DNA from: Beijerinckiaceae bacterium
GTDB taxonomy: Bacteria > Pseudomonadota > Alphaproteobacteria > Rhizobiales > Beijerinckiaceae
Direction: 5' to 3'
Length of the DNA: 33,958 nt
NCBI GenBank assembly: GCA_947453155.1
Contig: CANGFE010000023.1
Location: 1 to 33,958 of the forward strand
Every line of letters begins with the position of its first letter. The first letter of the stretch is position 1. The translations under genes were made by a program, and so were the position numbers. Below the pieces are notes generated by a model. That model was not told where the DNA came from, did not search any database, and saw only the letters and a program-made list of their open reading frames with translations. Shown here piece after piece: positions 4,912 through 33,400 of the stretch.

Positions 4912-7900
4912 GCTGATTTGCTCCGCCGCAAACGTTCCATGGCGACATAGATGACGGGCGTTGTGTAGATCGTGATCAATTGTGAGAGCGCCAGCCCCGC
5001 GACAATGGTAATGCCGAGTGGGCGGCGCATTTCAGCCCCCGGTCCTTCAGCAAAGAGCAGAGGCAGGGCGCCGCACATGGCTGCCAAAGTGGTCATGAGA
5101 ATGGGACGGAAGCGCGCCAGACAAGCTTCATGCATGGCGCTTGCCGCATCCAGTCCCCGTTCGCGTTGCGCAGCCAAAGCAAAATCAACAAGCATGATGC
5201 CGTTCTTCTTCACAATGCCGATCAGCAAGATCATGCCGATGAAAGCAATCAGCGAGAGTTCTGTGCCCGTGATGGCCAGAGCCAGCAGGGCGCCAAGTCC
5301 TGCCGAGGGGAGTGTGGAGAGAATGGTCAGCGGGTGGCGCAGGTTCTCGTAGAGGATTCCCAAGATCAAATAGACGCAGACAAGGGCCGCCAGAATGAGA
5401 AAGGCCTGACTGCCGCCACTCTCTTCGGCAAATTTCGCATCGCCCGAAAAATCCGTGCGGATAGAATCCGGCGGATGAAGGCCCAAGACAGCCTCTTGCA
5501 CGGCACGATTGGCACGCTCGACCGGCACGCCGCTAGCCTGTGCGTAGCTGATGGTCGCCGAAGCAAACAAGCCAGTGTGATTGACGGCGACAGGCGAAAG
5601 GCGCCGCTCCATCTGCGCCATGGCGGACAGCGGCACTTGGCGCCCGCCCGCGGCAGGGACATATAGATTCAACACATCATTGGGATCATCTTGCCGGTCG
5701 CTCGCGACGTCGAGTACAATTTTATATTGATTGCGCTCGCCATAGACAGTCGAGATTTGCCGCTGGCTGTAGCTGTTGGACAGAGCATTGTTGATGTCAG
5801 TCATGGAGGCGCCGATGCGCGCCGCCGCATTGCGATCAATCAGCACGCGCGCTTCAAGCCCGGCTTTGTCGCGATCACTCGAGACATCGACAATCTCAGG
5901 CAAGGTGCGCAGGCGTGCGAGCGCTTTTTGCGTCCATTCGTCGATTTCTTCCGAGGAAGATCCCCAGAGCGTGAATTGCAAGGAGGAACGGCTGGGCCGC
6001 CCGCCGACACGCACATCACTCACCGCCCAGAGATAAGTGCGGATGCCGGGCATCAGCGTCAATTGCAGGCGCAGGCGATCAATGACTTGCTGCGTTGTTT
6101 CTTTGCGCTCGCCTGGCGGCTTGAGACTGATGAACATGCGCCCCGTATTGGTGGTGAAGCCGGAGCCGACGAAAGATGCGGTCGAGGCGACTGCAGGATC
6201 AGCCTCGATTGTCGCCCCCGCTTTCTTCTGCAGCTCGCTCATCGTCGGGAAGGAGACATCGCTGGCAGCTTCCGTCCAGGCAAAGACGAGACCCAGATCA
6301 TCTTGCGGGATCGCGCCTTTGGGGAGTGTGCGGAAGAGATGAATGGTGAGGCCTGTCGTCACCAAGACGAGAATGATGGAAAGTGCCGGTCGCGCCAGAG
6401 CAGGCTTGAGCGTGCGCGCATAAAGATTTTTCAGCGCCTCCAGCCATGTGTCGAAGCGGTTGGGTTCAGGTTCCCCGTCTTTTTGTCGCGCGCAAATGGT
6501 GGGCGTGACGATCAGCGAGACAAGGGTAGAAAAGCCGATGGCAAAAACCATGGTGAGCGAGAATTCGCGAAATACGCGACCAATCACACCCGGCATGAAA
6601 AGCAGTGGAATGAAAGCGGCCACCAGCGAAATGCTGATTGCCAGAATGGTAAAGCTGATTTGCCGCGCGCCTTCAACCGCCGCTTGCAGAGTGCTCAAAC
6701 CCTTTTCGCGATTGCGATGGATGTTTTCAATCATGACAATGGCATCATCAACAACGAAGCCGACCGAGATGATGATCGCCATCAGTGACAAAGTGTCGAT
6801 GGTGAAGCCCGCCAGCCACATCATGGCGAATGTGCCAGCTAGGGAAAGCGGAATGGTGATCCCCGCCGCCAGTGTGGACGTGGCTCGGCGCAAAAAGAGG
6901 AAGACCACGCCCATGACGAGGCTGACGGAAATCAGAAGCGTCTTTTGCAGATCCGCAATAGAGGCGCGGATTGTCACCGTGCGGTCGCTCATGATGGAAA
7001 AATCAACACCAGCGGGAATCCATTGACGCAATTGCGGAAGAATGGCTTTCACGCCATCGACTGTCTCGATGACATTGGCATCGGGCTGTTTGGTCACTTG
7101 AATGAGAACAGCAGGTTTTCCGTCGTGCCAACCAGCGGAGCGCGAATTGCGTGTGGCGCGCTCGATGGTCGCCACATCGCCCAAGCGCACCAGCGCGCCG
7201 CCACGCGTGCGCAGAACGACATCAGCATAATCTTGTGGTTCGGTGAGCTGGCCGTTGCTGGAGAGCGTGAGGAAGGTCTCGTCACCATCAATGCCGCCTA
7301 TGGGTGAGGCTGTATTAGAACTGTTGATGGCGGTGCGCACCTCTTCGAGCGAGAGGTTCATCCCCGCCAAGCGCGCGGGGTCGAGCCGCACGCGGATTGC
7401 GGGTTGTTCGGAACCGCTCACTTGCACTTCTGCGACGCCATCCACCTGTGACATGCGCTGGGCGATAAACGTGTCAGCCAGATCATAAAGAGCATCGGTT
7501 GCCAGAGTGGTGGATGTGAGTGCGATGATCAGCACAGGCTGGCTGTTGGGATTGGCTTTGCGCAGGCGCGGGCTTGACGGCATATCGCCCGGCAAATCGG
7601 GAATGGCGGCATTGATGGCGGCTTGCACATCGCGCGCAGCCATATCGATCTTGCGCGAGAGGTCAAACTGGATGGTGACAGCGCTTGTGCCCAAAGTTGA
7701 TGACGAGGTCATCTCGGTAATGCCGGCGACATTGCTGAGCGCCCGTTCAAGGGGTGCCGCGACAGTGGCTGCCATGGTGGACGGATCAGCGCCGGGGCGT
7801 GACGCCAGCACGCGGATGGTCGGGAATTCGACATTGGGCAAACTGGCGACGGGCAGCGCGATCCATGCAGCGAGGCCAGCAATCAAGAGGCCCGCGCAGA

Positions 7901-7952
7901 TCAGCACCGTGCCGATGGGGCGAAAGATAAAGCGCTGCGAGAGGGCGCTCAT
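4908..7952 (-). CDS. RND efflux pump permease subunit 2 (MdtC/AcrB-like)
   Basis: A 1014-residue inner-membrane proton-driven exporter of the hydrophobe/amphiphile efflux RND class. It has the expected twelve-helix, two-large-loop layout: TM1 at about residues 12-33, a porter domain, then TM2-6 from about 335. The proton-relay pair is D402-D403 in G-F-V-V-D-D-A-I-V-M-I-E-N, and the TM10 Lys lies in G-I-V-K-K-N-G-I-M-L-V-D. The start overlaps the stop of the upstream pump gene by ATGA (7949-7952). Two unequal RND genes behind one adaptor recall MdtBC, which works as a mixed trimer, so this pair may do the same. The substrate cannot be told from sequence. Confidence 0.95.
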   Translation of the reverse strand: MSALSQRFIFRPIGTVLICAGLLIAGLAAWIALPVASLPNVEFPTIRVLASRPGADPSTMAATVAAPLERALSNVAGITEMTSSSTLGTSAVTIQFDLSRKIDMAARDVQAAINAAIPDLPGDMPSSPRLRKANPNSQPVLIIALTSTTLATDALYDLADTFIAQRMSQVDGVAEVQVSGSEQPAIRVRLDPARLAGMNLSLEEVRTAINSSNTASPIGGIDGDETFLTLSSNGQLTEPQDYADVVLRTRGGALVRLGDVATIERATRNSRSAGWHDGKPAVLIQVTKQPDANVIETVDGVKAILPQLRQWIPAGVDFSIMSDRTVTIRASIADLQKTLLISVSLVMGVVFLFLRRATSTLAAGITIPLSLAGTFAMMWLAGFTIDTLSLMAIIISVGFVVDDAIVMIENIHRNREKGLSTLQAAVEGARQISFTILAISISLVAAFIPLLFMPGVIGRVFREFSLTMVFAIGFSTLVSLIVTPTICARQKDGEPEPNRFDTWLEALKNLYARTLKPALARPALSIILVLVTTGLTIHLFRTLPKGAIPQDDLGLVFAWTEAASDVSFPTMSELQKKAGATIEADPAVASTASFVGSGFTTNTGRMFISLKPPGERKETTQQVIDRLRLQLTLMPGIRTYLWAVSDVRVGGRPSRSSLQFTLWGSSSEEIDEWTQKALARLRTLPEIVDVSSDRDKAGLEARVLIDRNAAARIGASMTDINNALSNSYSQRQISTVYGERNQYKIVLDVASDRQDDPNDVLNLYVPAAGGRQVPLSAMAQMERRLSPVAVNHTGLFASATISYAQASGVPVERANRAVQEAVLGLHPPDSIRTDFSGDAKFAEESGGSQAFLILAALVCVYLILGILYENLRHPLTILSTLPSAGLGALLALAITGTELSLIAFIGMILLIGIVKKNGIMLVDFALAAQRERGLDAASAMHEACLARFRPILMTTLAAMCGALPLLFAEGPGAEMRRPLGITIVAGLALSQLITIYTTPVIYVAMERLRRSKSA

Positions 7953-10900
7953 CCGATCAGCTCCTTGCTGCCGGGACTGAATCGTTTTTCACTTTGGCGG
8001 AAGCGATCAATGGCGAGATAGATCACGGGCGTGGTGTAGAGCGTCAAAGCTTGCGAGAGCAGCAGGCCACCGATGACAGAAATGCCCAGCGGCACGCGCA
8101 ATTCACTACCCATGCCCGAAGCTAGCGCCAAAGGCAGGGCCCCAAACAGCGCGGCCAATGTCGTCATCATGATCGGGCGGAAGCGCAGCAGGCAGGCGCG
8201 GATGATGGCATCTTGCGGCGAAAGGCCTTGTTCGCGTTCCGCCACAAGCGCGAAGTCGATCATCATGATCGCGTTTTTCTTCACAATGCCCATGAGAAGG
8301 ATAATGCCGATCAGAGCAACAACGGAGAGATCTTGCCCTGCCAAGATCAGCGCCAGCAAAGCGCCCACGCCCGCCGATGGCAGCGTGGTCAGAATGGTGA
8401 AAGGATGCGCAAAGCTCTCGTAGAGAACGCCGAGCACAATATAGATGGTGATGAGAGCTGCGAGAATAAGCCAAGGCTGATTGGCGAGTGAGCGCGAAAA
8501 TTCTGCGGCGTCGGCTGAGAAGGCGCTGATGATCGTGGCTGGCAAGCCGATGTCGGCTTCCGCCTGGCGGATTTCTTTTACTGCTTCACCGAGTGACGCG
8601 TCGGGCGCTAGATCGAAGCTGATGGGGGCTGCGGGGAATTGATCGAGGCGCGCGACCGAGAGCGGGCCGGTTGTCAGTCGGATTTGCGCAATGCTCTCCA
8701 ATTGCACCTGCGCACCGCCTGCCGCCGTCAGGAAGATTTTGGAGAGTGCAGACGGATCGCTTTGATAGGGCGCAGATGCTTCTAGCACCACGCGGTACTG
8801 GTTGGATTGCGCGTAGATGGTCGAAATCTGGCGCTGACCGAAAGCGCTATAGAGCGTGTCGTCGATCTGCTGCATGCCAATGCCGAAGCGGCCAGCCTTT
8901 TCGCGATCGACATCAATCTGGATCCGCGGACCGCCAGCTTGCGTCTCGCGTGCGACATTGCGCAAGAGCGGGCTTTCACGCAGGCGCTGCGCCAAGCGTT
9001 CGGACCAGAGCGTCAGCACCGCGCTGTCAGAGGCTGAGAGCGTGTATTGATATTGGGAGCGGCTGGAGCGTGTTGAAATCTGAATATCCTGTACTGGCTC
9101 GACATAAACCGTGACACCGGGAAGCGTGCCTGCCGAGCGGGTGAGACGATTTGCAATTTCTTCCGCCGAGGCACTTCGCGCCGCGCGGTCTTTCAAGACG
9201 ATGGTGAGGCGCGCGCTATTGCTGGTGGGATTGAGCGGGCCAATACCAGCCACTGAAGTAACGGCGCGCACATCCTTGTCTTTGAGGAAGAGTTCAGTCG
9301 CCTGCGCTTGCAAGCGTGTGACTTCGCGGAATGAGGCTTCGGGTGCTGCATCCAGCATGGCGATCATCACGCCCGTGTCTTGCGCGGGCAGGAAGCCCTT
9401 GGGCATGACGATATAGAGAAGGGCCGTGAGTGCTAGCGTGCCCGCGGTGATGCCAAGCACAAGGCGGCGGCGCGCGAGCGCGATCAGCAGTGTTTTTTCA
9501 TAAAAGCTCAGCAGCGCGCTGAAGGGAGCCTCGGTGCGTGCGAGCCATTTGTCGAAGCGGGGCGAAGTTTGTTTGCGCAGATATTTGGCGCAGATCATTG
9601 GCGTGACGGTGAGGGAGATCACCGCAGAGATGATGACCACCAGCGTGAGGGTGAGCGCAAACTCCCGGAACATGCGCCCAACAATTCCTGTCATGAACAG
9701 GAGAGGAATAAAGACTGCGATCAGCGAACAGGTCAGCGAGATGATGGTAAAGCCAATTTCGCGCGCCCCATTCAACGCGGCCTCCAGTGCCGCTTCCCCT
9801 TGTTCCATGCGCCGCTTGATATTTTCGATCATGACAATGGCATCATCGACCACAAAGCCCGTGCCGATGGTCAGCGCCATGAGGGAGAGATTGTCGATGG
9901 AAAAGCCCGCTGCCCAAATGGCCGCGAAAGTGGCGACGAGAGAAAGTGGGAGGGTAATGCCAGCCACGACCATGGCGCGGATGTCGCGAAGGAAGAGAAG
10001 CACGACGAGCACGACGAGAAAGATGGACAGGATCAGCGTCAGCTGAACTTCGGACAAAGAGGCGCGGATGGATTGTGTGCGGTCGTGAACAATTTCAACA
10101 CGTGCACCCGCCGGCATCAGGCGTTCAATGCGTGGTAATTCGCTGCGCAGCTTGTCGAGGGTTGCCACGACATTGGCGCCGGGCTGTTTCTGTACATCTA
10201 GAATGATGGCATTGCGGCCCTGATACCATCCTGCGACGCGCGCATTTTCGAGGCCTTCAACCACTTCGGCGACATCGCGCAGTAAGACCGGCGCGCCATT
10301 GCGCCAGGCGATGATGATATTGCGGTAAGCGTCTGCCGCACCGATCTGATCATTTGACGCGATGGTATAGGCTTGGCTCGGTCCGTCGAGCGCGCCTTTG
10401 GCACCGGCGACATTGGCGGCCGCAATGGCGATGCGCAATTCTTCCAAGCCAATTTTCATCACCGACAGACGCGCGAGATCGGCTTGAATGCGGACTGCTG
10501 GTTTGATCCCGCCTTGCAGCGTCACTTGTCCCACGCCCGATATTTCCGCGAGGCGCGGCACCATGAGGGTGTCTGCATAATCCGATAAGGTGCGCAGCGG
10601 CAGCGTGTCGGAGAACAGCGCCAGAGTGACAATCGGTGGGTCGGCCGGATTCACTTTGGAATAGGTTGGTGGATAGGGAAGATTGCGCGGCAATGTGGCG
10701 CCTGCGGCATTGATGGCCGATTGTACATCTTGCGTGGCTGCATCAATGTCGCGCGACAGATCAAATTGCAGCGTAATTTGCGACAGGCCAAAAGCTGATT
10801 GCGATGACATGGCAGCGAGCGCGGGGATTTGTCCGAATTGTCGCTCCAATGGCGCGGTGACAATGGCCGCGATCGTATCGGGATTGGCACCGGGCAAGCG

Positions 10901-19875: not shown

Positions 19876-19970
19876 GGCGCCTCTTTATCATTGCCCCCGC
19901 TGATCGGCCAATCCCGGCCTTCCGTCTGCGCTTGAGACATGAGACAAGAGGCTGCCTGAGGGAGACAGAC

Positions 19971-20807
19971 GTGGCGCCGTGGACGGATTATCAGGGACGG
20001 GTTGCACCATTGAAGCTTGCGACCTTTGTCGCGCTTTTTGGGCCTGGCCTTTCGATCATCTGGCAATGGGTGCAGGGGGATTTGGCGCCCAAACCCGTCA
20101 CTGAGGCTTTGCATCAGACCGGCACATGGGCCGTCCATCTGCTCCTGATCTCTCTCGCCATCACGCCCATCCGCACCATTGCCCAGTGGCCGCGCCTGAT
20201 TGATATCCGTCGCATGGTTGGCGTAGCGGCCTGTCTCTATCTGGTTATTCATTTCGGGCTTTATATTTATGACCAGAAGGGCGACATGCTGCGCGTCGCT
20301 TCAGAAATTGCACTGCGCTTTTATTTGACCATCGGCTTTGTTGCGCTTTTGGGCATTGTCGCACTTGGCATCACCTCGACGGATGGGTGGGTGCGCCGCT
20401 TGGGGGCCATGCGCTGGAACAAGCTGCATCGCACGATCTATTGGCTGACTGTGCTGGCCTTCATCCATGCTTTCTTGCAGTCGAAAGTGGATGTCAGCGA
20501 CTGGGTCATGCTGAGCGGTCTGTTTTTCGCCATGATCATGTGGCGCTTTGCCAAAAAGCGCGCGCAAACGGGCTTTCTGCCTCTTGTGGTCATTGCACTT
20601 GCAGCCACGCTCGCCACAGGTCTCGTCGAAGCGCTTTGGTATTGGGGCAAGACGGGCGTCATGGCGTCTCGTGTATTGGCGGCCAATTTTGATCCCGATA
20701 TGGCCGTACGGCCCGCCCAATGGGTGCTGGTCTATCTCCTGCTGGTCCTGCCTTTGCAGGCTTTTGGCCGCTGGCGTGGCCTTAAAAAGCGTAAAGCAGC
20801 ATCCTGA
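19971..20807 (+). CDS. msrQ: MsrQ-like haem b membrane protein (ferric-reductase-like domain)
   Basis: A 278-residue integral membrane protein of the YedZ/MsrQ family, which carries haem b and passes quinone electrons to the periplasmic methionine sulfoxide reductase MsrP. Six or so helices are visible. The haem-ligand His residues lie in C-L-Y-L-V-I-H-F-G-L-Y and in L-H-R-T-I-Y-W-L-T-V-L-A-F-I-H-A, and the arginine-rich loop I-D-I-R-R-M-V-G is typical. The GTG at 19971 is chosen because GAGGGAGA lies about 6 bases upstream; a TTG at 19932 would add 13 polar residues. No msrP is adjacent, which is unusual for this family. Confidence 0.85.
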   Translation: MAPWTDYQGRVAPLKLATFVALFGPGLSIIWQWVQGDLAPKPVTEALHQTGTWAVHLLLISLAITPIRTIAQWPRLIDIRRMVGVAACLYLVIHFGLYIYDQKGDMLRVASEIALRFYLTIGFVALLGIVALGITSTDGWVRRLGAMRWNKLHRTIYWLTVLAFIHAFLQSKVDVSDWVMLSGLFFAMIMWRFAKKRAQTGFLPLVVIALAATLATGLVEALWYWGKTGVMASRVLAANFDPDMAVRPAQWVLVYLLLVLPLQAFGRWRGLKKRKAAS

Positions 20808-23761: not shown

Positions 23762-24997
23762 TTACACCACAGTTTTGGTCGTATCCGCATCAGCAGGCTT
23801 GTCATACCATTTTGCATCCATGCGGCATGGCACGCCATTCTGCTTCAGTGTCTCTTCATATTCATTGCGGATATACGGATCTTCCATCCAATAGGGAATG
23901 GCAGTGCCGCCCTGATTGACGTCGATCGCCGTGTAATCGGTGTGCTTGGCACCCGGCGCACCCGGATCGCGACCCGGATTATGCGGGCCGAACCATGCGG
24001 TGAGGCGGAAGTCTTCCTTCGACACCGAGAAGTGCTGGTGATACCAGCGCGCGCCACCTGGCGCTGCCGTCACAAGACCAACGGGTTCATAGTCGAGACG
24101 GTTGACCTGATCGGCCATGCCGTTTTCCCACGGACGTTCGCCGCACTTTTCCGGCCAGGAATAAGTGTAGCCCTTGCCCTTCAAGCAGACGAGCACGGCG
24201 GCGGATGTATGCGCATGGCCCTTGGAATAGCGGCCATTCTCGTGCTGACCGATCCAGAAATAGAACTGGTTGTTGGTCATGGCGGGTTCGACGCGGCGAT
24301 AGCCGACCGAGCGGCGGTTATCGAGCGGCAATTCGCAATTGATCACATCGGGGATGAAGTTGGTCTTGCGCTGGGCCAAGCCGCGCACGGGATCGGGCTC
24401 GATCTCATCCTTCGGCTTGAAGAAATCTTCGTCGCCCGAGAAGCGATCACGGAAGATGAAGGGGTTGTTAAACACGGCCTCAACATTGTTGAGCTGGTTC
24501 AGCACATTCGGCGCCGTATTGCCGGCCAGCAGCAGAGCGCCGCCCGATGTCGCATTGACGTGGCGATACCAAGCGTTCATCGGGATCGAGAACATCGAAC
24601 CCTTCTGCCATTCGAAAACGACTTTCTTCTTGTCGCCTTCCTGCCAGACTTCCGTGGTGCCACGGCCTTCCACGACGAGGAAGATTTCCTCATACATGTG
24701 CTTCTCAGGATTGAGCGCGCCACCCGGCGGCACTTCAATCACATAGCAGCCCCATTTCGTTTCTGTGCCGTAGAGCTGGATGAAATGGCCTTTGCCACCG
24801 CGACGCTTCCAGTCGAAGAGCGGCAGGTTCTGCACCTTGCTGATGCCAATGCCGCGGAAGACCGGAATGCCTTCGGCTTCCATCCACGCATCATAGGGTG
24901 TCGGCTGCTTTTTGAACTCGCCGAAGCCCGCCTTGCGGGTGCCTGACGGCTCGTGCCAATGCTGGACGCCGTCCTTCTCGCCGGGATCATGGGGCAT
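23762..24997 (-). CDS. Bicupin domain protein of unknown function
   Basis: A 411-residue protein with two cupin barrels and no signal peptide. The first has H100 and E104 (P-E-K-H-M-Y-E-E-I-F) plus H146. The second has H261 and H263 (K-G-H-A-H-T-S) with H320/H322 (W-Y-H-Q-H-F). These are plausible metal ligands in both halves, so a metal-dependent dioxygenase or isomerase in the broad style of gentisate dioxygenase is possible, but I do not recognise a specific family. GAGGAGA lies 5 bases before the ATG. It follows the Bug binding protein gene by 26 bases, which suggests they share a substrate. Confidence 0.82.
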   Translation of the reverse strand: MPHDPGEKDGVQHWHEPSGTRKAGFGEFKKQPTPYDAWMEAEGIPVFRGIGISKVQNLPLFDWKRRGGKGHFIQLYGTETKWGCYVIEVPPGGALNPEKHMYEEIFLVVEGRGTTEVWQEGDKKKVVFEWQKGSMFSIPMNAWYRHVNATSGGALLLAGNTAPNVLNQLNNVEAVFNNPFIFRDRFSGDEDFFKPKDEIEPDPVRGLAQRKTNFIPDVINCELPLDNRRSVGYRRVEPAMTNNQFYFWIGQHENGRYSKGHAHTSAAVLVCLKGKGYTYSWPEKCGERPWENGMADQVNRLDYEPVGLVTAAPGGARWYHQHFSVSKEDFRLTAWFGPHNPGRDPGAPGAKHTDYTAIDVNQGGTAIPYWMEDPYIRNEYEETLKQNGVPCRMDAKWYDKPADADTTKTVV

Positions 24998-25023: not shown

Positions 25024-26049
25024 TTACTGAATCTCGCCGATAATAGAGGCCAGCCGCTCGGCTGTCTCCTTCGGTGTGGCCACAATTTCACTGACAATCT
25101 TCTGCAAATCGGCGCCGGAGACCGGATCGACCTCCAGATTGCCCTTCCGGGCGTCCTCGAGGAAGGCCGGATCCTTGAGCATTTTGTCAAATGCCCCGCG
25201 CAGAGCCGCGACACGCTCGGCGGGAACGTCCGGCGTCGTAAAGACGGGGCGGCCGACGGCCGAGGGGGCTGAGAGCAGGCGCAAGACCTGGCGGTCGGCG
25301 TCATTCTTGGCCAGATCCATGAGCAGCGGGACGTCGGGCAGGTCGGGGGCCTTGGTCAGGCCGATCTGCACGAGGATGTTGATCTTCTTGTCGCGAAGCC
25401 AGTCGGGGCGGGTCGATTTCCACGAGGCCCAGCTGTTCGAGCCACGGCCCGAGACTTCGCCCTTTTCCATGGCAAGATTGATGTCATTGCCGCCGGGATA
25501 GCCCAGAATGATTTTGAACTTGGTGCCGAGCAGCGAATTCATGGCGCGCGGGAATTGCGAAGAGGTCGAACCACCTGTCGCGCCCATCGGCACTTCTTGC
25601 TTGGTCGCATCTTCAATCGTCTTGATGCCCGATGTGAACCAAGTGACAGTGGTGTTGTTCTCTTGGCTCGGATTGCCGATGTAGATGAACTTCTGCGTGT
25701 CAAACGTGATGGCCTTGTCGCCAATCGCCTGTTGAAGCGAGAGCGATTGGTCGGCAGTGGCGAGCACAGTGCCGTCTTTGGGCGCGATTTTGGCAACATA
25801 GCCTGCCGCCACGCGCGAGCCGCCGCCGGGCATATTGCGGGCGATCATATTGGGCGTGCCCGGCACATATTGGCCCATATGGCGTGCCACGAGGCGGGCA
25901 TAAGTGTCGTAACCACCACCCGGCGAATAGCCGATGATGAAATCAATCGTCTTGCCTTTGTAGAAGCTTTCAACCGCCGGCTGGGCAGCCAGCGGCGTGG
26001 CGGCGAGCGCCAGAAGGGCGGTGAGGGCGGGGGCCTTTAAAGAGGTCAT
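25024..26049 (-). CDS. Bug/TctC-type periplasmic solute-binding protein
   Basis: A 341-residue exported receptor of the tripartite tricarboxylate transporter (Bug) family. The signal peptide ends at A-A-Q near residue 23. The mature start, F-Y-K-G-K-T-I-D-F-I-I-G-Y-S-P-G-G-G-Y-D, is the family hallmark: the P-G-G-G-Y-D loop binds carboxylates. N-M-P-G-G-G-S and G-A-T-G-G-S-T-S-S are further conserved loops. No TctA or TctB membrane genes are in the window, which is common for Bug proteins. It lies 147 bases after soxA and 26 bases before the bicupin gene on the same strand, so it probably forms a unit with the latter. The ligand is unknown. Confidence 0.9.
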   Translation of the reverse strand: MTSLKAPALTALLALAATPLAAQPAVESFYKGKTIDFIIGYSPGGGYDTYARLVARHMGQYVPGTPNMIARNMPGGGSRVAAGYVAKIAPKDGTVLATADQSLSLQQAIGDKAITFDTQKFIYIGNPSQENNTTVTWFTSGIKTIEDATKQEVPMGATGGSTSSQFPRAMNSLLGTKFKIILGYPGGNDINLAMEKGEVSGRGSNSWASWKSTRPDWLRDKKINILVQIGLTKAPDLPDVPLLMDLAKNDADRQVLRLLSAPSAVGRPVFTTPDVPAERVAALRGAFDKMLKDPAFLEDARKGNLEVDPVSGADLQKIVSEIVATPKETAERLASIIGEIQ

Positions 26050-26196: not shown

Positions 26197-26958
26197 TCAG
26201 GGCCTGACGGCGGGTGTTTCGAGCTTCATGCCGGCGGCGCGCTCCATCAGGAAGGCTTCGAGCGCGATGGCTTCCGTAGAGCCTGCGGCAAAGGGCTCGG
26301 CGCGCATGCCCGACATACAATTGCGAAAGCGCCGCTGGAGCGAGCCCAAAGACTGCCATTCGAGGCGATAAAGCGGATAGCCGTTCGGGTGAGCTTGGGG
26401 AATGGGGGCGGCGCCCAAATGCCCGCCCGCATTGTCATCATGACATTGCGCGCAGGAGAAATTGAGCTGGCCCATGCGCGCGGAATAAAGCGCCGCGCCT
26501 TGCGCACGCGTGGCTGCAAGCTTTGCGTCTTGCGGCGGGCTGATTGGCATATCGCGCGATTGGCGCCCGACGAAAGCCGAGAGGCTCAACAATTCACGGC
26601 CCTCGCGCTGCGGAGCGGGCGCCTCTTGGCGCTCGACGCGGCATTGGATGATGCGGCCAGCCAAGTCGATTGCGCTTTGTGTCTTGTCATCCATGGCCGG
26701 ATAGCGCGCGGCCACACCCTTCATGCTTTGCGTTGCATCGCCATGACATGCGGCGCAAGATTTTTGCGCTTTGCCAGTTGGCGTATTCCATAATGTCTCG
26801 CCTTCCAGCACAGACAGCATGCCGGGATTGGCGAGATCATCCTTTTGCATGGCCTGCGTATCGGGCCCCATATAATCAAAGCCGGATTTGCGCGCATCTT
26901 GCGCAAAGGCAGGCAGTGCCATGCCGATCACAACAACAAGGCAGGCAAGCCTATTCAA
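26197..26958 (-). CDS. soxA: SoxA, dihaem cytochrome c of the SoxAX complex
   Basis: SoxXA oxidatively joins a sulfur substrate to the Cys of SoxY in the periplasm. This 253-residue form is dihaem: C-A-A-C-H at 68-72 and C-A-Q-C-H at 169-173. C106 (I-Q-C-R-V-E) and the essential C214 in R-N-C-M-S-G-M-R-A-E-P-F match the family's Cys haem ligands; the second becomes a persulfide in known SoxA. The start is taken as TTG at 26958, inside the 3' end of soxZ, because it gives a compact signal peptide (M-N-R-L-A-C-L then a hydrophobic core to A-F-A); the longer frame to 27111 reads only Arg/Pro-rich shadow sequence. All catalytic residues are present. Confidence 0.93.
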   Translation of the reverse strand: MNRLACLVVVIGMALPAFAQDARKSGFDYMGPDTQAMQKDDLANPGMLSVLEGETLWNTPTGKAQKSCAACHGDATQSMKGVAARYPAMDDKTQSAIDLAGRIIQCRVERQEAPAPQREGRELLSLSAFVGRQSRDMPISPPQDAKLAATRAQGAALYSARMGQLNFSCAQCHDDNAGGHLGAAPIPQAHPNGYPLYRLEWQSLGSLQRRFRNCMSGMRAEPFAAGSTEAIALEAFLMERAAGMKLETPAVRP

Positions 26959-27271
26959 CTTGGATGCTCGCAGTCTGCACTTGTGTCTCGCCCTTATTGT
27001 CCGTCCAGGAAAAAACCAGCGTGCCGGATTCCGTGGCGATGGTGGTGAAAGAGATGAACGGATTGGCGGTGATCGCTGGATGCAGCTGTGCCGAAAAGAC
27101 CACCTCGCCATTATAGGTGCAGACGAATTTCTCGATAATGTCGCGCGGGATTAGCTGGCCATCCATGCCGGGCCGAAATCCCGTTTCCATCGGATGCGAC
27201 ATCAGTGTTTTGATTTCAATGATCTCGCCGCGCTTGGATTTGGCGGGGACATTGATGAGGGCGCGGGCCAT
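26951..27271 (-). CDS. soxZ: SoxZ, sulfur carrier complex subunit
   Basis: SoxZ is the immunoglobulin-like partner of SoxY in the SoxYZ sulfur-carrier heterodimer. The 106-residue protein shows the usual M-A-R-A-L-I-N-V-P start, the I-I-E-I-K-T-L-M-S-H-P-M-E-T-G motif, A-N-P-F-I-S-F near 72-78, and a Trp-containing last strand, F-S-W-T-D. It has no signal peptide, as is normal: SoxZ is carried out with Tat-exported SoxY. GGAGGA upstream of the ATG at 27271 lies inside the last codons of soxY. Two bases separate the soxY stop from this ATG, and the stop overlaps the soxA start by 8 bases. Confidence 0.93.
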   Translation of the reverse strand: MARALINVPAKSKRGEIIEIKTLMSHPMETGFRPGMDGQLIPRDIIEKFVCTYNGEVVFSAQLHPAITANPFISFTTIATESGTLVFSWTDNKGETQVQTASIQVE

Positions 27272-27273
27272 CT

Positions 27274-27717
27274 CTATTCCTCCACACAAGCTGGCATGGT
27301 GACGATGACTTCGCTCTTGGCGCTGAAATAAGTCCCGTCCGACATTTCGGCAATGGCCGTGATAAATTGCGTATCATTGAGGCGCATGCGGGTCGCGACC
27401 TGAGCGCGGCCAGAACGCGGCGTCAGATTGAAGATCGCAACATCGGGCAGCGGATTTTTTTCGTTGAAAATACCGATACGCGTGACGTGATTGTCTTTGG
27501 TCATCGGGCTGTCGACCAGCACGCTGAGTGGCACCGAATTGCCATTCTCGACCAGCAGTGAAATGTCGAATTTCACGCGCCCTTCTTTCACCGGCTTGCC
27601 GCCTGTGAAAGCATCAACGGCAAGTTTCATCTTTTCCGGTGTCGCGCGCGCAGGCGTCACCAGCGCGATGCTCGCGCCTGCGGCCAGAAGCGTGAATTGG
27701 CGGCGTGTCGTGTTCAT
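27274..27717 (-). CDS. soxY: SoxY-like sulfur carrier with atypical C-terminal tail
   Basis: SoxY holds sulfur intermediates on a Cys at the end of a flexible C-terminal arm. This 147-residue protein has a Tat signal (T-T-R-R-Q-F-T-L-L-A-A) and the SoxY fold with G-R-V-K-F-D-I-S-L-L-V-E-N-G-N-S-V-P and D-N-H-V-T-R-I-G-I-F. Its tail, however, reads V-I-V-T-M-P-A-C-V-E-E: C144 is fourth from the end, where known SoxY proteins end G-G-C-G-G. The codons for V-E-E double as the soxZ Shine-Dalgarno sequence. In another frame C-G-G is encoded just ahead of soxZ, so a frameshift or sequencing error should be excluded. It overlaps soxX by ATGA. Function as a carrier is likely; the bound group may differ. 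Confidence 0.88.
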   Translation of the reverse strand: MNTTRRQFTLLAAGASIALVTPARATPEKMKLAVDAFTGGKPVKEGRVKFDISLLVENGNSVPLSVLVDSPMTKDNHVTRIGIFNEKNPLPDVAIFNLTPRSGRAQVATRMRLNDTQFITAIAEMSDGTYFSAKSEVIVTMPACVEE

Positions 27718-28163
27718 TTCTGCGTGTCGTCTTTCAGGCTGACGAGAAAGGCAATGACATCTTCGATCTCTTGGGCGTTGAGCAAAGTCTTGGCCTTGTA
27801 ATTGGCAGCGACCCGCTCGAGCCCTTCGCTTCTATAATAGGGCGGCATGATCGTTTTTTCATTCACTTTGGTGCTATCGACCATGCGCAAGCGGATTTCA
27901 CCTTCGCTCATGCGTGATCCAGTTCCAGCCAAGCTGGGTGCCAGATCACCCTGAAAACGCTCTTCCGGAAAGGGGCCGGAATGGCACAACAGACAAAGCC
28001 CCTTTTGGCGTTCAACCACAATGGCGCGGCCTTTGGCGGCGTCTCCCTTCACGCCCGTGAGGGATTGGGTAATGGCGCCGTTCTCTATGCGATAGGGCAC
28101 AAGCGTTTGCGCTGACGCATCAAAGCTCACCAGCACCGCCAACAATCCCAACAAGCGCCACAT
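27714..28163 (-). CDS. soxX: SoxX, monohaem cytochrome c of the SoxAX complex
   Basis: A 149-residue periplasmic cytochrome that takes electrons from SoxA. After a signal peptide ending near residue 18 (D-A-S-A), the haem site is C-L-L-C-H (57-61) followed by S-G-P-F-P-E-E-R-F-Q-G-D-L-A-P-S-L, a SoxX pattern. M106 in T-I-M-P-P-Y-Y is the likely axial ligand. E-I-E-D-V-I-A-F-L-V-S-L closes the haem fold. Its ATG at 28163 shares one base with the flavoprotein gene's stop (TGATG), and its stop overlaps soxY by ATGA, so translation is coupled on both sides. Confidence 0.93.
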   Translation of the reverse strand: MWRLLGLLAVLVSFDASAQTLVPYRIENGAITQSLTGVKGDAAKGRAIVVERQKGLCLLCHSGPFPEERFQGDLAPSLAGTGSRMSEGEIRLRMVDSTKVNEKTIMPPYYRSEGLERVAANYKAKTLLNAQEIEDVIAFLVSLKDDTQK

Positions 28164-29410
28164 CAGCCGAAGACTTCCTGTGTGATCGTCTTATACCAGC
28201 CTTCGGCATATTGCGCTTCAGCTGCGCGCACGCTGGCGGATGCATTGGCGGCACTCACGCCACCAGCTCCTTGGACATCCGCGAGAAGACCTCTGGCTGG
28301 TGCATAAACGCCGGCAACGGAAATTCCATAATCAGGTTTTACCAGCGAATAGCAGGTGTTGACGAGTTTGGGCTCCGTCGGAGCGTCTCCGCGCAACAAA
28401 GCCGCGACGGCTTGCGCACAGGCCTTGGCTTGGGCATTGGCTGAAAAGGCTGATTTGGGCATGCCACCACCAACACAGGCGTCTCCAATGACATGAATAT
28501 TGGGCGCGAGTTTGGCTTCAAAAGTCACAGGATCAATCGGGCACCAGCCGGTCTGGTCGGCAACGCCAGCACTGATCGCAATTTTTCCGGCGCGTTGCGG
28601 CGGGATCACATTGCCCACATCCGCTTTATGTTCACCAAATTCGGTGATGAAGATTTTCTCTTTCGCCTTCACCTCAGTGACTTTGCCGCCGCCCGAGAGA
28701 CCGATCCATTCGACGCGGTCGCCATAAATCTCTTTCCATGCGGCCGTGAAGAGCGATTGCTTTGAAAAAGCATCCTTCGCGTCAAGGATGAGCAGTTTCG
28801 ATTTCGGCTTGTGGTTTTTGAGATACCAGGCAATCAGGCTTGCGCGCTCATATGGTCCCGGCGGACAGCGGAAGGGATTGGCGGGGGCGGAAATGATCAC
28901 CGTGCCACCATCACTCATGGCTTCAAGTTGCTGACGCAAAAGCAGGGTTTGTGCGCCCGCTTTCCAGGCATGCGGCATGAGATTGCTGGCCGCTTCATCA
29001 TAGCCGGGAAGCGCTTCGAAATTGAGATCAATGCCGGGTGCGAGCACCAGCCGATCATAAGAAATCATCACGCCATCAGCCAAAGTCACGCGGCGCACGG
29101 AATTGTCGATTTTGCTCGCCATCTGCCGCACCAAGCGAATGCCTTGGCGCTCTAATGCAGCATAGGTGAATGTCTGCTGCGACAGATCGCGAAGTCCGGC
29201 AATCACGGCATTGCTGAAAGGGCAGGAGATATATTGCGCATTGGGTTCGATGAGTGTGACATCAAACCCCATTTTGTGCAGAAAGCGCGCGGCCGAGGCG
29301 CCGCCAAAGCCGCCACCAATCACAACCACTTTGCCTTGCGTCTGCGCGAGGGCAGGCGCGGCTAAGGCTGCGGCGGAAGAGGCGAGAAGTGTGCGGCGCG
29401 TGAGGCTCAT
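28163..29410 (-). CDS. Flavocytochrome c sulfide dehydrogenase flavoprotein (FccB/SoxF)
   Basis: A 415-residue periplasmic flavoprotein that oxidises sulfide or polysulfide and reduces its cytochrome partner. It has a Tat-like signal (L-T-R-R-T-L-L-A-S-S) and an FAD-binding V-V-I-G-G-G-F-G-G (29-37). C63 in S-C-P-F-S-N is at the place of the covalent FAD-linking Cys of Allochromatium FccB. C182 (P-F-R-C-P-P-G-P-Y-E-R) and C353 (N-T-C-Y-S-L-V) match the redox disulfide. The start at 29410 gives an ATGA overlap with the cytochrome gene; a longer frame to 29437 lies wholly within that gene. Every catalytic Cys is kept, which argues for an active enzyme. Confidence 0.92.
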   Translation of the reverse strand: MSLTRRTLLASSAAALAAPALAQTQGKVVVIGGGFGGASAARFLHKMGFDVTLIEPNAQYISCPFSNAVIAGLRDLSQQTFTYAALERQGIRLVRQMASKIDNSVRRVTLADGVMISYDRLVLAPGIDLNFEALPGYDEAASNLMPHAWKAGAQTLLLRQQLEAMSDGGTVIISAPANPFRCPPGPYERASLIAWYLKNHKPKSKLLILDAKDAFSKQSLFTAAWKEIYGDRVEWIGLSGGGKVTEVKAKEKIFITEFGEHKADVGNVIPPQRAGKIAISAGVADQTGWCPIDPVTFEAKLAPNIHVIGDACVGGGMPKSAFSANAQAKACAQAVAALLRGDAPTEPKLVNTCYSLVKPDYGISVAGVYAPARGLLADVQGAGGVSAANASASVRAAEAQYAEGWYKTITQEVFG

Positions 29411-29739
29411 TTGGCGCGCCCCTGTGTGGCAAGCCATTGCGCAATGGCGCGCGTTTCTTCCGGCGTGAAACCTTTGGCGATGCGGTTCATCAGTGTCGCT
29501 TCGCGCGCACCGGTGCGAAACGCATCCATGCCGGCTTCAATCTCAACCGCGGAAAGATTCTTGAGAGATGGTAATTCTGTCTCAGTAGCCCCGTGGCATC
29601 CAAGACAGGCCGATGCACCGGGTGGCGATTGGGACACATCTAGCGGGTCGGCAAGAGCAGGGCCGCAAAGGCAGAAGAGGAGCGCCATAAGCGCTCCTCC
29701 TGTTTTTGTCGCGAAGCGAAATGTCTTTCGCTCCCTCAT
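29407..29739 (-). CDS. Class I cytochrome c, probable electron acceptor of the sulfide dehydrogenase
   Basis: A small cytochrome with one haem site, C-L-G-C-H (45-49), and M84 as the likely axial ligand. Coupled by ATGA to the flavoprotein gene, it is the likely FccA-type subunit, although known FccA proteins may be mono- or dihaem. Two starts compete. The ATG at 29739, three bases after the molybdenum subunit's stop, gives a 110-residue protein with a well-formed signal peptide (R-E-R-K then a hydrophobic core to A-L-A). An internal ATG at 29688 has a much stronger Shine-Dalgarno sequence (GGAGGAG) but a very short, uncharged signal. I prefer 29739. Confidence 0.88.
   Translation of the reverse strand: MRERKTFRFATKTGGALMALLFCLCGPALADPLDVSQSPPGASACLGCHGATETELPSLKNLSAVEIEAGMDAFRTGAREATLMNRIAKGFTPEETRAIAQWLATQGRAK
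29677..29699 (-). promoter_or_regulatory. Hairpin enclosing an internal start codon and Shine-Dalgarno sequence
   Basis: GAGGAGCGC and GCGCTCCTC form a perfect 9-base-pair stem. On the transcribed strand the five-base loop contains the in-frame ATG at 29688, and the GGAGGAG that precedes it lies in the stem. The structure falls inside the cytochrome c signal-peptide codons. It could hide or expose the internal start, or it may be chance in a GC-rich coding region. Confidence 0.3.
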
Positions 29740-29742
29740 GGA

Positions 29743-31914
29743 TCAAGCCTTGCGCAGATCGAGGTTTTTCAACGGCACGTCACGCAGACGCTTGCCCGTT
29801 GCTGCGAAAATGGCATTGAGCACGGCAGGGGCGGCGACGAAGATCGTCGGTTCACCCACGCCACCCCAGAATCCGCCCGAGGGAACCGGATAGGATTCAA
29901 CTGGCGGCATCTCAGCCATTTTCATCACTTCATATGTGTCGAAGTTTTCTTGCTCCATGCGGCCATTCTTGACCGTCATTTCGCCGTAGAGAAGTGCGGA
30001 CAGGCCATAGGCAAACGAGCCTTCGATCTGGGCGGCAACTTGCTGCGGATTGACGACATGGCCGCAATCGGTGGCAGCAACAATGCGATGGATCTTCAAG
30101 GCGCCCTTGTCGCTGACCGAGACTTCTGCGACAGCGGCGACATAAGAGCCATAGCCCATGTGCTGCGAGATGCCGCGGAAGACGCCTGGTGCTGTGGGTT
30201 TGCCCCAGCCCGCTTTCTCTGCAACCGTATTCAGCACCGCCAGATGCTTTGGATAATTCTTCATCATCTTGCGGCGGAATTCGAGCGGGTCTTGTCCGGC
30301 GGCATGCGCCATCTCATCGATGAAACATTCCAGATAGATCGCGTTCTGGTTGTTGTTCACACCACGCCAGAAACCCGGACGGAAGGGCGGGTTGCGCATG
30401 GCATGGTCAACGAGCAGGTTCGGAATGTCATAACCGAACTGACCTTCCGGCCCCTGTGCATTGAGACCCTGGAACGTGCCGGGGTCACGACCCTCGACAA
30501 GCGCTTCGGGGCGCAGACCTGCCAGAATGGATTGGCCGGAAATGCGCATATGAAGACCAACCACATTGCCCTTGTCATCCAGCGCGCCTGTGAGCTTGCA
30601 CATGGTGGTCGGGTGATAGGTGCCGTGCGTAACATCTTGCTCACGTGACCAGATGAGTTTGACCGGCGTGCCGGGCATTTCCTTGGCGACGAGTACGGCT
30701 TGGCGCACATAGTCATGGCTCGATGAGCGACGACCGAAGCCGCCACCCAGATTCATGCGGATCACATCGCATTTTTCAATCGGCAGGCCGGAGGCCGGCA
30801 CGACCGTAGCCAACGCGGCTTCGGCATTTTGTGTCGACGTCCAGACCATGCACTTTTCTGGTGTCCATTGCGCCGTGGCGTTCATGGGCTCCATGGTCAT
30901 GTGATGCTGGTAAGGGAAGCGATAGACCGCTTCCACTTTCTTCGTCGCACCCGCGATGGCGGTCTCGACATCACCCTTCTTGTTGCCAACGAAAGCCTGT
31001 TTGGCGTCGAGGCCTTCGGTGAGCATGGCTTTGATGGATGCGGTCGAGACAGAAGCGTTCGCGCCTTCATCCCAGATGATGTTCACCGCATCGAGCGCGG
31101 TCTTGGCGCGGTACCATGTGTCGGCAACCACCACGACGGCATTGCCGTCGATGACCAGCACTTTTTTGACGCCGCGCATTTTTTCGGCTTTCGCCGCATC
31201 AAAGCTTTTTACCTTGCCACCTGGCACAGGTGTTTCCTTGATGGCGGCGTTCAACATGCCGGGCATTTTGTAGTCGATGGAATAGATCTGCGATCCATCA
31301 AGCTTCATCTTGGTGTCAAGACGCGGCAACGGCTTGCCGGCAATCGTCCAATCTTTCGGATCCTTGATCTTCACATCTTTTGGCGCTTCGAGCTTGGCTG
31401 CGGCGAGCGCCACTTGGCCATAGCGCAACGAGCGTCCCGAAGCCTTATGCGTGATCACGCTCTTCGATGTGGTCAGTTCAGCGACCGGCACTTTCAGCTG
31501 ATTGGCGGCAGCTTGCATCAACATGATGCGGGCTGCTGCACCGCCCTTGCGGACGTAATCTTCCGAACCGCGGATCCCGCGCGAACCGGCTGTCTGGAAA
31601 TCACCCCAGATGCGCTTGCGCGCAACATTCTGGCCGGGTGTCGGATATTCAGTCGTCACCTTCGACCAATCAGCATCGAGCTCTTCGGCAACGAGCTGGG
31701 CAAGGCCTGTGAGTGTGCCTTGGCCCATTTCAACACGGGCCACGCGAACCACGACAGTATTGTTAGGCTTTACGACAACCCAAGCATTGATTTCGGGCGT
31801 GTCACCAACAGCAGCTTCGGCTGTGGGAATATGAAAACCAATAGAGAGGCCGCCAGTGGCAGCAGCAGCGCCGGCAAGGAAGCCGCGACGCGAAAGTTTT
31901 TGCGCAATCGTCAT
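29743..31914 (-). CDS. Molybdenum hydroxylase large subunit (IorB / xanthine dehydrogenase family), Tat-exported
   Basis: A 723-residue molybdopterin-cytosine-dinucleotide enzyme subunit resembling isoquinoline 1-oxidoreductase beta. The N-terminus carries a twin-arginine signal, S-R-R-G-F-L-A-G-A-A-A (8-18), so the folded enzyme is periplasmic or membrane-bound. Molybdopterin-binding motifs include V-E-M-G-Q-G-T and L-G-G-G-F-G-R-R. The catalytic Glu of the family is E688 in G-V-G-E-P-T. GGGAGG lies 7 bases before the ATG at 31914; an upstream TTG at 31935 overlaps the small-subunit gene and lacks such support. It is followed three bases later by the cytochrome c gene. The substrate (aldehyde, N-heterocycle or something sulfur-related) is unknown. 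Confidence 0.92.
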   Translation of the reverse strand: MTIAQKLSRRGFLAGAAAATGGLSIGFHIPTAEAAVGDTPEINAWVVVKPNNTVVVRVARVEMGQGTLTGLAQLVAEELDADWSKVTTEYPTPGQNVARKRIWGDFQTAGSRGIRGSEDYVRKGGAAARIMLMQAAANQLKVPVAELTTSKSVITHKASGRSLRYGQVALAAAKLEAPKDVKIKDPKDWTIAGKPLPRLDTKMKLDGSQIYSIDYKMPGMLNAAIKETPVPGGKVKSFDAAKAEKMRGVKKVLVIDGNAVVVVADTWYRAKTALDAVNIIWDEGANASVSTASIKAMLTEGLDAKQAFVGNKKGDVETAIAGATKKVEAVYRFPYQHHMTMEPMNATAQWTPEKCMVWTSTQNAEAALATVVPASGLPIEKCDVIRMNLGGGFGRRSSSHDYVRQAVLVAKEMPGTPVKLIWSREQDVTHGTYHPTTMCKLTGALDDKGNVVGLHMRISGQSILAGLRPEALVEGRDPGTFQGLNAQGPEGQFGYDIPNLLVDHAMRNPPFRPGFWRGVNNNQNAIYLECFIDEMAHAAGQDPLEFRRKMMKNYPKHLAVLNTVAEKAGWGKPTAPGVFRGISQHMGYGSYVAAVAEVSVSDKGALKIHRIVAATDCGHVVNPQQVAAQIEGSFAYGLSALLYGEMTVKNGRMEQENFDTYEVMKMAEMPPVESYPVPSGGFWGGVGEPTIFVAAPAVLNAIFAATGKRLRDVPLKNLDLRKA

Positions 31915-31931
31915 GTCATTCCTCCCGATGT

Positions 31932-32420
31932 TCAAGCGCGCTGCGCTTTGGTGTTGCTCTTCTTAGCCTTGGCATTTTTAGCCGCCAGCTTCACGCCGGC
32001 GCGAATGCGATTATAGGTGCCGCAGCGGCAGATGTTGCTCATCTCTTCATTGATCTGCGCATCGGTCGGCTCGGGATGTTTCACGAGCAAAGCGGCCGCG
32101 GCCATGATCTGGCCGGACTGGCAATAGCCGCATTGCGGCACATCGAGTTCGAGCCAGGCTTGCTGGATCGGATGCGTCACAGTCTTTGACAGACCTTCAA
32201 TGGTGACGATCTTCTGTTTTTCGGTGAAAGAGCTCACAGGCAGCGAGCAAGAGCGCGTTGGCACGCCATCGACATGGACGGTGCAAGCGCCGCAAGCAGC
32301 AACGCCGCAGCCATATTTCGTGCCGGTCAGGCCGATCTGTTCGCGAATGGCCCAGAGCAACGGAGTATCCGGCTCCACGTCGATATTATGGATTTTGCCA
32401 TTGATATTCAGGCGCGCCAT
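31932..32420 (-). CDS. [2Fe-2S] small subunit of the molybdenum hydroxylase (IorA-like)
   Basis: A 162-residue iron-sulfur subunit passing electrons from the molybdenum centre. The plant-ferredoxin-type cluster is bound by C38, C43, C46 and C58 ([10 protein letters not shown]). The second, helical-domain cluster is bound by C97, C100, C131 and C133 (Q-C-G-Y-C and C-R-C-G-T-Y). There is no signal peptide, so export would rely on the Tat signal of the large subunit. No FAD subunit is present, as in isoquinoline oxidoreductases, so a cytochrome or quinone takes the electrons. The C-terminus is Lys/Ala-rich. GGGAGG lies 5 bases before the ATG. It is the first gene of the block that runs into sox. 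Confidence 0.93.
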
Positions 32421-32578: not shown

Positions 32579-33400
32579 TTATTGGAGCGGCGGCACCGTA
32601 TCACCGATGGTGACGCGCTTCATCAAGCGGCGTTCCTTGTCGGAAAAATCGGTGCGCGCATGGCTGGTGCAGCGATTGTCCCAGACGAGAATGTCGCCAA
32701 CCTTCCACTGATGCGCGTAGATCAAGCCTGTGTTTTCAATGTGATCGCACAGCTCATCGATCAGCGCGCGGCTTTCGGCTGCATCCATGCCGACAATATG
32801 GTCGGTCATCAGGCGGCAAACATAGAGCGACTTTTTGCCGGTTTCTGGAATGCGGCGCACAATCGGATGGATGGCATGTGGGCCGAGTTCATTCTTGCCG
32901 TCAGGCTTGGTCGCGCCATAGGTGAAGGTGTTTAGGGCCTTCAAGCCTTCGATGCGCTTCTTGGTCGCCTCTGGCAGCGTTTCATAGGCGCGCACCATAT
33001 TGGCAAAGCACGTGTCGCCGCCCTCGGAGGGAATTTCCAAACCATGCAGCGCCGCGCCCTTGCAGGGCTGGGCCTGATGAATGCGGTCGAAATGGAAATC
33101 CATCTCGCCATCGGGCAGGGAGCCAACGAGCTCACCATTTTCGCGGATGTTGGAGATGACCATAATGTCGTCGCGATGCGACAGCGGCGATTTTTTGCGC
33201 GCCTTTTCGATATGTCCGAAAACTTTGCCAAATTCGACGAGTTCGTCGTCATTGATGGTCGGCCCATGGACGACGAGCACATGATATTGGTTGAAGGCCT
33301 CGAGAATGGCCTTGGAATCTTCGGGCGTGATATTGCGCACGTCGAGCCCGACAATCTCTGCACCCAGAGGCGCGTCGAGGGGCTTCACCGAAATCGTCAT
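32579..33400 (-). CDS. TauD/TfdA-family Fe(II)/2-oxoglutarate dioxygenase
   Basis: A 273-residue cytoplasmic dioxygenase that couples 2-oxoglutarate decarboxylation to hydroxylation of a substrate; family members cleave taurine and other sulfonates, sulfate esters or phenoxyacetates. The iron triad is H103 and D105 (F-H-F-D-R) and H247 (T-S-H-A-R-T-D), in the classic W-D-N-R-x-x-x-H context. The Arg residues that bind 2-oxoglutarate lie in R-R-L-M-K-R (257-262). The N-terminal P-L-G-A-E-I-x-G-L-D is typical. GGGAGG lies 5 bases before the ATG. It precedes the molybdenum/sox block on the same strand, so a link to organosulfur breakdown is tempting but unproven. Confidence 0.92.
   Translation of the reverse strand: MTISVKPLDAPLGAEIVGLDVRNITPEDSKAILEAFNQYHVLVVHGPTINDDELVEFGKVFGHIEKARKKSPLSHRDDIMVISNIRENGELVGSLPDGEMDFHFDRIHQAQPCKGAALHGLEIPSEGGDTCFANMVRAYETLPEATKKRIEGLKALNTFTYGATKPDGKNELGPHAIHPIVRRIPETGKKSLYVCRLMTDHIVGMDAAESRALIDELCDHIENTGLIYAHQWKVGDILVWDNRCTSHARTDFSDKERRLMKRVTIGDTVPPLQ

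Follow-up and report, generated by a model that had tools for sequence, protein, structure and literature searches.

Eight genes in a 33,958-nucleotide stretch of DNA from a Beijerinckiaceae bacterium (hereafter the window) very probably form a distinct unit, which is tied to a molybdenum hydroxylase of the IorAB type and is able to do without SoxB. The window is the entire contig C23 of a 2.79-Mb genome (G000) that is 83.6% complete. Positions 26197-32420 are taken up by the eight open reading frames, all on the minus strand, for IorA, IorB, a small cytochrome c, FccB, SoxX, SoxY, SoxZ and SoxA. Judged from its sequence, this cassette is composed of parts from known families that are joined in a conserved unit. 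We read it as a self-contained periplasmic, SoxB-independent variant of SoxXYZA that works with IorAB and has FccAB as a frequent accessory. To this reading, including the full mechanism proposed below, we assign a probability of roughly 35%. The likeliest function of the cassette may be to oxidize, in the periplasm, a reduced sulfur compound that is perhaps an organic thiol.

Gene content and conservation of the cassette

The genes and the altered SoxY arm are as follows.

31932..32420, minus strand: IorA-type [2Fe-2S] subunit of a molybdenum hydroxylase (Fer2 and Fer2_2), present in 45 of the 46 roomy loci defined below
29743..31914, minus strand: IorB-type molybdopterin subunit with a Tat signal (MoCoBD_1 and MoCoBD_2); alternative longer start at 31935
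29407..29739, minus strand: small monohaem cytochrome c with one CxxCH; its sole Pfam match is below the cut-off
28163..29410, minus strand: FccB flavoprotein of sulfide dehydrogenase (FCSD_central and FCSD-flav_bind); longer start at 29437
27714..28163, minus strand: SoxX cytochrome c (TIGR04485, 74.4 bits, cut-off 61)
27274..27717, minus strand: SoxY of the AACIE-arm kind (TIGR04487, 188.6 bits, cut-off 172; TIGR04488, 93.6 bits, cut-off 125)
27277..27309, minus strand: carrier arm of SoxY, translated as VIVTMPACVEE instead of an arm ending in GGCGG
26951..27271, minus strand: SoxZ (TIGR04490, 100.4 bits, cut-off 76); longer TTG start at 27289
26197..26958, minus strand: SoxA dihaem cytochrome c (TIGR04484, 219.1 bits, cut-off 110); exact start uncertain, first ATG at 27111

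With the likely start codons (ATG at 31914 for IorB, at 29410 for FccB and at 27271 for SoxZ), adjacent genes overlap or are separated by 17 bases or less. The open reading frames and the family matches agree with a preliminary description, made from the sequence alone, of eight tightly spaced genes in this order on one strand.

To describe conservation, 71 loci with SoxY were taken from one-genome-per-species contigs of Alpha- and Betaproteobacteria; the scan used short peptides of the window SoxY and so favours near relatives. Gene content was counted in the 46 loci that had 5 kb or more of upstream and 1.5 kb or more of downstream sequence (roomy loci). SoxX, SoxZ and SoxA were detected in all 46, IorA and IorB in 45, FccB in 37 and the small cytochrome in 33. 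The commonest neighbour family beyond the cassette was detected in only 11 of the 71 loci. The gene order recurs across Alpha- and Betaproteobacteria, and therefore the arrangement is not due to chance. In the preliminary description, all eight genes were suggested to act together. SoxXYZA (46/46) and IorAB (45/46) indeed behave as one unit; FccB, absent beside SoxX in nine of the 46 loci, departs from this picture. The closest relatives found were Beijerinckiaceae and Rhizobiales metagenome genomes, whose SoxY proteins are 88-93% identical to that of the window; their IorB, where the gene is present, is 96-97% identical.

In the 46th roomy locus (L052), IorB was found on a contig with the same length as that of the locus (45,216 bases), about 12 kb from the Sox genes if this is the same record. 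Some cassettes are divided between contigs. In a Devosia genome (L067), IorAB-SoxX lies on another contig, and in G003 (locus L003), the genes for TauD, IorA, IorB, cytochrome c and FccB lie near the end of another contig (L151). Two genes without a Pfam family precede soxX in G003, as if something stood between fccB and soxX. The genomes of L029, L046, L049 and L063 also contain an IorB match of 62-77%.

The SoxY of the window exceeds the cut-off of TIGR04487 ("SoxY-related AACIE arm protein") and falls below that of the true-SoxY family TIGR04488. The arm ends in PACVEE and not in GGCGG, the arm end of the canonical pathway. Thus, the earlier naming of this protein as SoxY stands as far as a SoxY-related carrier is meant, and has to be narrowed to the AACIE-arm variant. 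The change in the arm, which is the best clue as to why SoxB may be dispensable, had been overlooked. The arm cysteine is kept in 70 of the 71 related SoxY proteins, with A or S before it; the 71st (L051) ends before the arm. Eighteen short loci (L072-L089) were also taken from cassette genomes, and in seven of them a SoxY ending in VTIGGCGG or VTLGGCGG was found beside a true SoxB. In a tree, 69 cassette SoxY rows were separated from four canonical rows with support of 100/97, where the canonical rows are few and one of them is long-branched.

The partner proteins SoxX, SoxZ and SoxA exceed the cut-offs of the true families. SoxA was aligned from end to end with the solved structures 1h31_A and 2c1d_A, including a cysteine near the C-terminus, which we take to be catalytic from established knowledge of the SoxA family. 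Two CxxCH sites and the cysteine on the C-terminal side were observed in every SoxA row shown, except for L068, a mis-called piece of 36 residues. For TsdA, such a cysteine is stated to be catalytic in the available part of the source (PMC4423706). With its haem and cysteine sites intact, SoxXA seems capable of loading a carrier.

The link with IorAB was also followed in 397 genomes of the order (order survey). An AACIE SoxY over the cut-off was detected in 31 of them, and IorB was adjacent in all 31. By script, a same-strand IorB orthologue was located at 0-6 kb upstream of SoxY in 30 cases, and the remaining genome (G298) has a partial IorB at a contig end. Starting from the hydroxylase, 44 of 49 IorB orthologues (at least 58% identity) have an AACIE-like SoxY shortly downstream. 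This number comprises 43 found by script and G404, which was added after locus inspection and has a divergent SoxY (106.5 bits to TIGR04487). Below the orthologue group, IorB identity falls to 52% and 45%. Pairwise distances were correlated between IorB and SoxA (0.82) and between SoxY and SoxA (0.85), values that shared descent alone could explain.

In a phylum survey, AACIE SoxY over the cut-off was detected in 12 of 299 genomes, some of which are also in the order survey. Three of these genomes (1.7-2.1 Mb) belong to another class. They possess SoxB, and IorB stands directly before SoxX with no FccAB between (two 18-kb loci and one short locus). Four genomes of family f57 have a SoxY just below the TIGR04487 cut-off (162.6-170.6 bits) and gave no SoxB match; the sole f57 genome fetched (G676) contains all eight cassette genes. 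G459 is a useful negative for the definition of the cassette. Its SoxY, under the TIGR04487 cut-off, has the canonical GGCGG arm, SoxB and FccB are near, and no IorAB was found in 18 kb. The cassette is also carried by plasmids in two genera, namely in Neorhizobium galegae (L110, typed as conjugative) and Methylobacterium sp. NMS14P (L111). The L110 copies of IorB and of the small cytochrome are each matched as two separate pieces, perhaps owing to a frame break.

Distribution of SoxB, SoxC and FccAB

The lack of soxB in the window, pointed out in the preliminary description, extends to the other contigs of the genome: no SoxB match was detected at E ≤ 0.001 in the own genome (83.6% complete), nor in the four closest relatives (G001-G004). 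In the 50 cassette genomes, SoxB was scored as present when a match exceeded the cut-off of 550 bits or represented a piece of the gene, and weak matches below the cut-off were not counted. SoxB over the cut-off was detected in 15 genomes and a piece in three more (at contig ends in G041 and G005 and, in G046, within a contig as a partial match of 236.6 bits); the other 32 are SoxB-free. Some match to the SoxB model at E ≤ 0.001 was obtained in 40 of the 50 genomes and none in 10. Among the 32 SoxB-free genomes, the only matches in 22 were weak ones to the wider family (38-172 bits), and the other 10 gave none. Similar weak matches were also present in 10 of 14 control genomes. Named strains without SoxB belong to Microvirga, Skermanella aerolata, Azorhizobium doebereinerae, Mesorhizobium, Neorhizobium, Rhizobium terrae, Palleronia and Wenxinia.

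The gene order recurs in Alpha- and Betaproteobacteria, and 32 of the 50 genomes that carry it do so without SoxB. The outcome that had been named beforehand as contradicting a special cassette, a complete soxBCD set in all such genomes together with the absence of IorAB from most, was observed on neither count. An ordinary split sox locus was rejected, IorAB being constant and SoxB often absent. In the order survey, SoxB was detected in 135 of the 397 genomes and in 23 of the 31 with AACIE SoxY. Seven of the eight AACIE genomes without SoxB are 93-100% complete. With a looser definition of the cassette, 12 of 43 cassette genomes in this survey were without SoxB.

SoxC over the cut-off was detected in 24 of the 50 cassette genomes, including the own genome, in which it lies on another contig (C4:21378-22619, 492.1 bits, cut-off 420). 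The earlier statement that soxCD is lacking is accordingly correct for SoxC in the window and not for the genome, where cytochrome c genes adjoin the SoxC gene. In L112, the locus around this SoxC gene of the own genome, the gene for the SoxC-like sulfite/sulfane dehydrogenase (8370-9680) is flanked by two cytochrome c genes (7829-8377 and 9694-10704), and the same arrangement was observed in G002. Of the 32 SoxB-free genomes, nine (the own genome and eight others) have SoxC over the cut-off and 23 do not.

FccB carries the domains of flavocytochrome c sulfide dehydrogenase and the cysteines that we assume to have the redox role; its closest solved relative is 5n1t_A (E 1.1e-138). The small cytochrome c was not detected in any roomy locus without FccB, and is probably the FccA partner of FccB. 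In nine of the 46 roomy loci, FccB is not beside SoxX and IorAB is retained. FccB is therefore not a core part, and FccAB is a frequent accessory.

Proposed mechanism and rival explanations

IorAB has the domains of the xanthine oxidase family, the conserved GVGE motif and the fold. On family grounds, it would be a carbon hydroxylase. In the mechanism that we propose, SoxXA would couple a reduced sulfur compound to the arm cysteine of SoxY as a mixed disulfide, a role suggested by its family membership. Thiosulfate would be a less likely substrate than an organic thiol or thione. IorAB would oxidize a carbon, either next to the sulfur on the loaded carrier or in the same compound before loading; since IorAB is a putative carbon hydroxylase, the carbon adjoining the sulfur would be a natural target. 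The released carbon part would be a carbonyl or hydroxy compound, and the sulfur that remains on SoxY may be removed by FccAB, by a SoxCD-like enzyme encoded elsewhere or by another route. No sulfonate would be formed on the arm and, because of this, SoxB would not be needed. The absence of an arm sulfonate would also be in better agreement with an organic sulfur substrate than with thiosulfate. Bradyrhizobium diazoefficiens has two soxY genes, of which only soxY1 in locus I is indispensable for the oxidation of thiosulfate, according to the available part of the report (PMC5748708). By analogy, thiosulfate oxidation would not be the task of the cassette.

A narrower version, in which SoxXA loads an organic thiol or a heteroaromatic thione, IorAB hydroxylates the sulfur-bearing carbon and the sulfur stays on SoxY, is rather unlikely by our estimate. 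If true, it would be a carrier-bound cleavage of carbon-sulfur bonds that is built from Sox parts.

Several results weigh against the proposed SoxB-independent system. In the order survey, AACIE SoxY and SoxB are positively associated (odds ratio 6.5); this value owes much to one genus, g41, since it supplies 16 of the 23 genomes with both. For five of the 49 IorB orthologues, the 18 kb fetched contained no Sox genes, and therefore IorAB can work without the carrier and may act on a free substrate. The SoxC genes in the own genome and eight other SoxB-free genomes would also fit the oxidation of inorganic sulfur. Furthermore, 20 neighbour proteins from other loci were scanned, and neither a common theme nor a clue to the substrate was obtained; these proteins include cytochrome c, FAD enzymes, an amidohydrolase, a two-component system, a LysR regulator, an amidase and a beta-eliminating lyase.

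The idea that FccAB substitutes for SoxB belongs to the same group of results. In the 49 genomes behind the loci, SoxB (pieces counted) was present in 7 of 9 without FccB versus 11 of 40 with FccB (p 0.008). Here, L003 was counted as FccB-positive, as its FccB sits on another contig; before this reassignment, the values were 7 of 10 versus 11 of 39 (p 0.025). The trend was not repeated in the order survey, in which SoxB was detected in 20 of 28 genomes with FccAB and 11 of 15 without (p 1.0), FccAB being judged only from the size of the gap between IorB and SoxY. Because the association is absent there, the argument that FccAB replaces SoxB was dropped.

Two other explanations, each improbable in our view to about the same degree, have to be weighed against the proposed mechanism. 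In the first, the cassette oxidizes inorganic sulfur: FccAB would generate sulfane from sulfide, and its oxidation on SoxYZ, after loading by SoxXA, would fall to IorAB or a SoxCD-like enzyme instead of the usual steps. The closeness of FccB to flavocytochrome c sulfide dehydrogenase and its position beside SoxX in 37 of the 46 loci agree with this explanation, but FccB is missing in the other nine loci while IorAB persists. Similarly, SoxC over the cut-off is present in 24 of the 50 cassette genomes, including the own genome, whereas 23 of the 32 SoxB-free genomes lack it as well. In the consensus model, as given in the available part of the source, SoxB removes the SoxY sulfonate (PMC5336275), and these genomes have no SoxB. 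In addition, the family of IorAB hydroxylates carbon.

In the second explanation, IorAB is an ordinary periplasmic oxidase of aldehydes or heterocycles that acts on a free substrate, and SoxXYZA contributes indirectly through protection, sulfur disposal or disulfide chemistry. The five stand-alone IorAB orthologues are consistent with this. So is the best fold match of IorB, an aldehyde dehydrogenase; the matches listed are chains of the xanthine oxidase family, and the comparison hardly tests the residues before about position 190. The ped cluster offers a parallel, as its periplasmic dehydrogenase is paired with a carrier resembling SoxYZ, for which roles in disulfide formation and protection are suggested in the accessible part of the source (PMC12997753). 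However, the three ped-associated proteins named there do not include SoxXA, while the cassette retains the SoxXA pair with its conserved cysteine. Moreover, SoxY and SoxZ of the window are encoded by separate genes and gave 59 and 47.8 bits with TIGR04557, the model of the ped-type fused carrier, below its cut-off of 140.

An ordinary thiosulfate Sox system with soxB elsewhere in the genome and the hydroxylase as a chance neighbour is very improbable: the 18 of 50 cassette genomes with SoxB or a piece of it and the incompleteness of the own genome would allow it, but SoxB is absent from 32 cassette genomes and gave no match even at E ≤ 0.001 in G001-G004, the SoxB-free AACIE genomes of the order survey are nearly all 93-100% complete (7/8), IorAB is constant, the carrier arm is not GGCGG, and a separate GGCGG SoxY accompanies SoxB in seven of the 18 short loci.

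Neighbouring genes and comparison with known systems

Three genes adjoin the cassette.

32579..33400, minus strand: TauD-family dioxygenase (PF02668, 203.9 bits), 158 bases upstream of iorA
25024..26049, minus strand: Bug/TctC-type binding protein (PF03401), lineage-specific, in 9 of the 71 loci
23762..24997, minus strand: bicupin protein (Cupin_2 and Cupin_1), lineage-specific, in 10 of the 71 loci

The family matches bear out the Bug and bicupin proteins described beyond soxA. Both were found only in the window's own relatives, and so was the TauD-family protein (five of the 71 loci and G003), which reached 129.4 bits against a cut-off of 313 for the NCBIfam taurine dioxygenase. The bicupin protein is 90-99% identical across ten related loci, in which SoxA is 66-83% identical. 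Judged by these identities, it seems to be under stronger constraint than the adjoining Sox genes. Elsewhere in the window, genes for urate breakdown (membrane urate oxidase, HIUase, OHCU decarboxylase and a xanthine/uracil-type permease) occupy 38-4729. A ferric-reductase-like membrane protein is encoded at 19932-20807 on the plus strand; it presumably resembles MsrQ, and no msrP was noticed alongside.

Sox genes are commonly taken as a sign of thiosulfate oxidation. The cassette carries relatives of soxX, soxY, soxZ and soxA, without soxB in most of the 50 cassette genomes searched, and probably does something other than thiosulfate oxidation. For a range of bacteria from soil, freshwater and the sea, it may thus be a mistake to read thiosulfate oxidation from Sox genes. 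The cassette also allows a direct genetic test of what a Sox carrier holds besides inorganic sulfur.

Searches in an open-licence library gave no publication linking an AACIE SoxY locus to the hydroxylase. In a SoxY family survey from 2024, sequences without the GGC motif were discarded as being of poor quality, according to the part of the paper available (PMC11237559), and this filter should have excluded the AACIE-arm group. Extra sox loci beside a main one have been reported: besides the second soxY of B. diazoefficiens, three SOX clusters are described for Polynucleobacter QLW-P1DMWA-1, which shares particular SOX genes with Bradyrhizobium (PMC3308952). No hydroxylase is mentioned for these second loci in the available parts of the two reports (PMC5748708, PMC3308952). 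Three Bradyrhizobium loci in our set (L016, L031 and L034) hold the cassette, and we infer that the second loci of the published strains are the same cassette. AACIE SoxY over the cut-off was present in 16 of 17 g41 genomes among the matches listed. Genus g41 may correspond to Bradyrhizobium, and soxY2 of B. diazoefficiens may be of the AACIE kind.

By score, the SoxY of the window is a member of the TIGR04487 family. The family name appears on the plasmid records of N. galegae and Methylobacterium sp. NMS14P, where the gene setting is the same. TIGR04487 covers SoxY alone, whereas the link with IorAB is added by the present analysis. The cassette shares SoxX, SoxZ and SoxA, all over the family cut-offs, with the canonical Paracoccus-type SoxXYZABCD system, but differs from it in the variant SoxY, the lack of SoxB in the own genome and the addition of IorAB. 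Aldehyde dehydrogenases of the Gluconobacter IorAB type stand with a multihaem cytochrome. The Gluconobacter enzyme (8gy3) has domains, a Tat signal and a fold in common with the cassette IorAB; in contrast, the latter is 28% identical to it and is coupled to Sox genes. The quinoprotein dehydrogenase-associated carrier of TIGR04557 likewise resembles SoxYZ and stands next to a carbon oxidase of the periplasm, as far as the available part of the source describes it (PMC12997753). That system combines a fused SoxYZ with a PQQ enzyme, whereas the window combines separate soxY and soxZ genes with a molybdenum enzyme.

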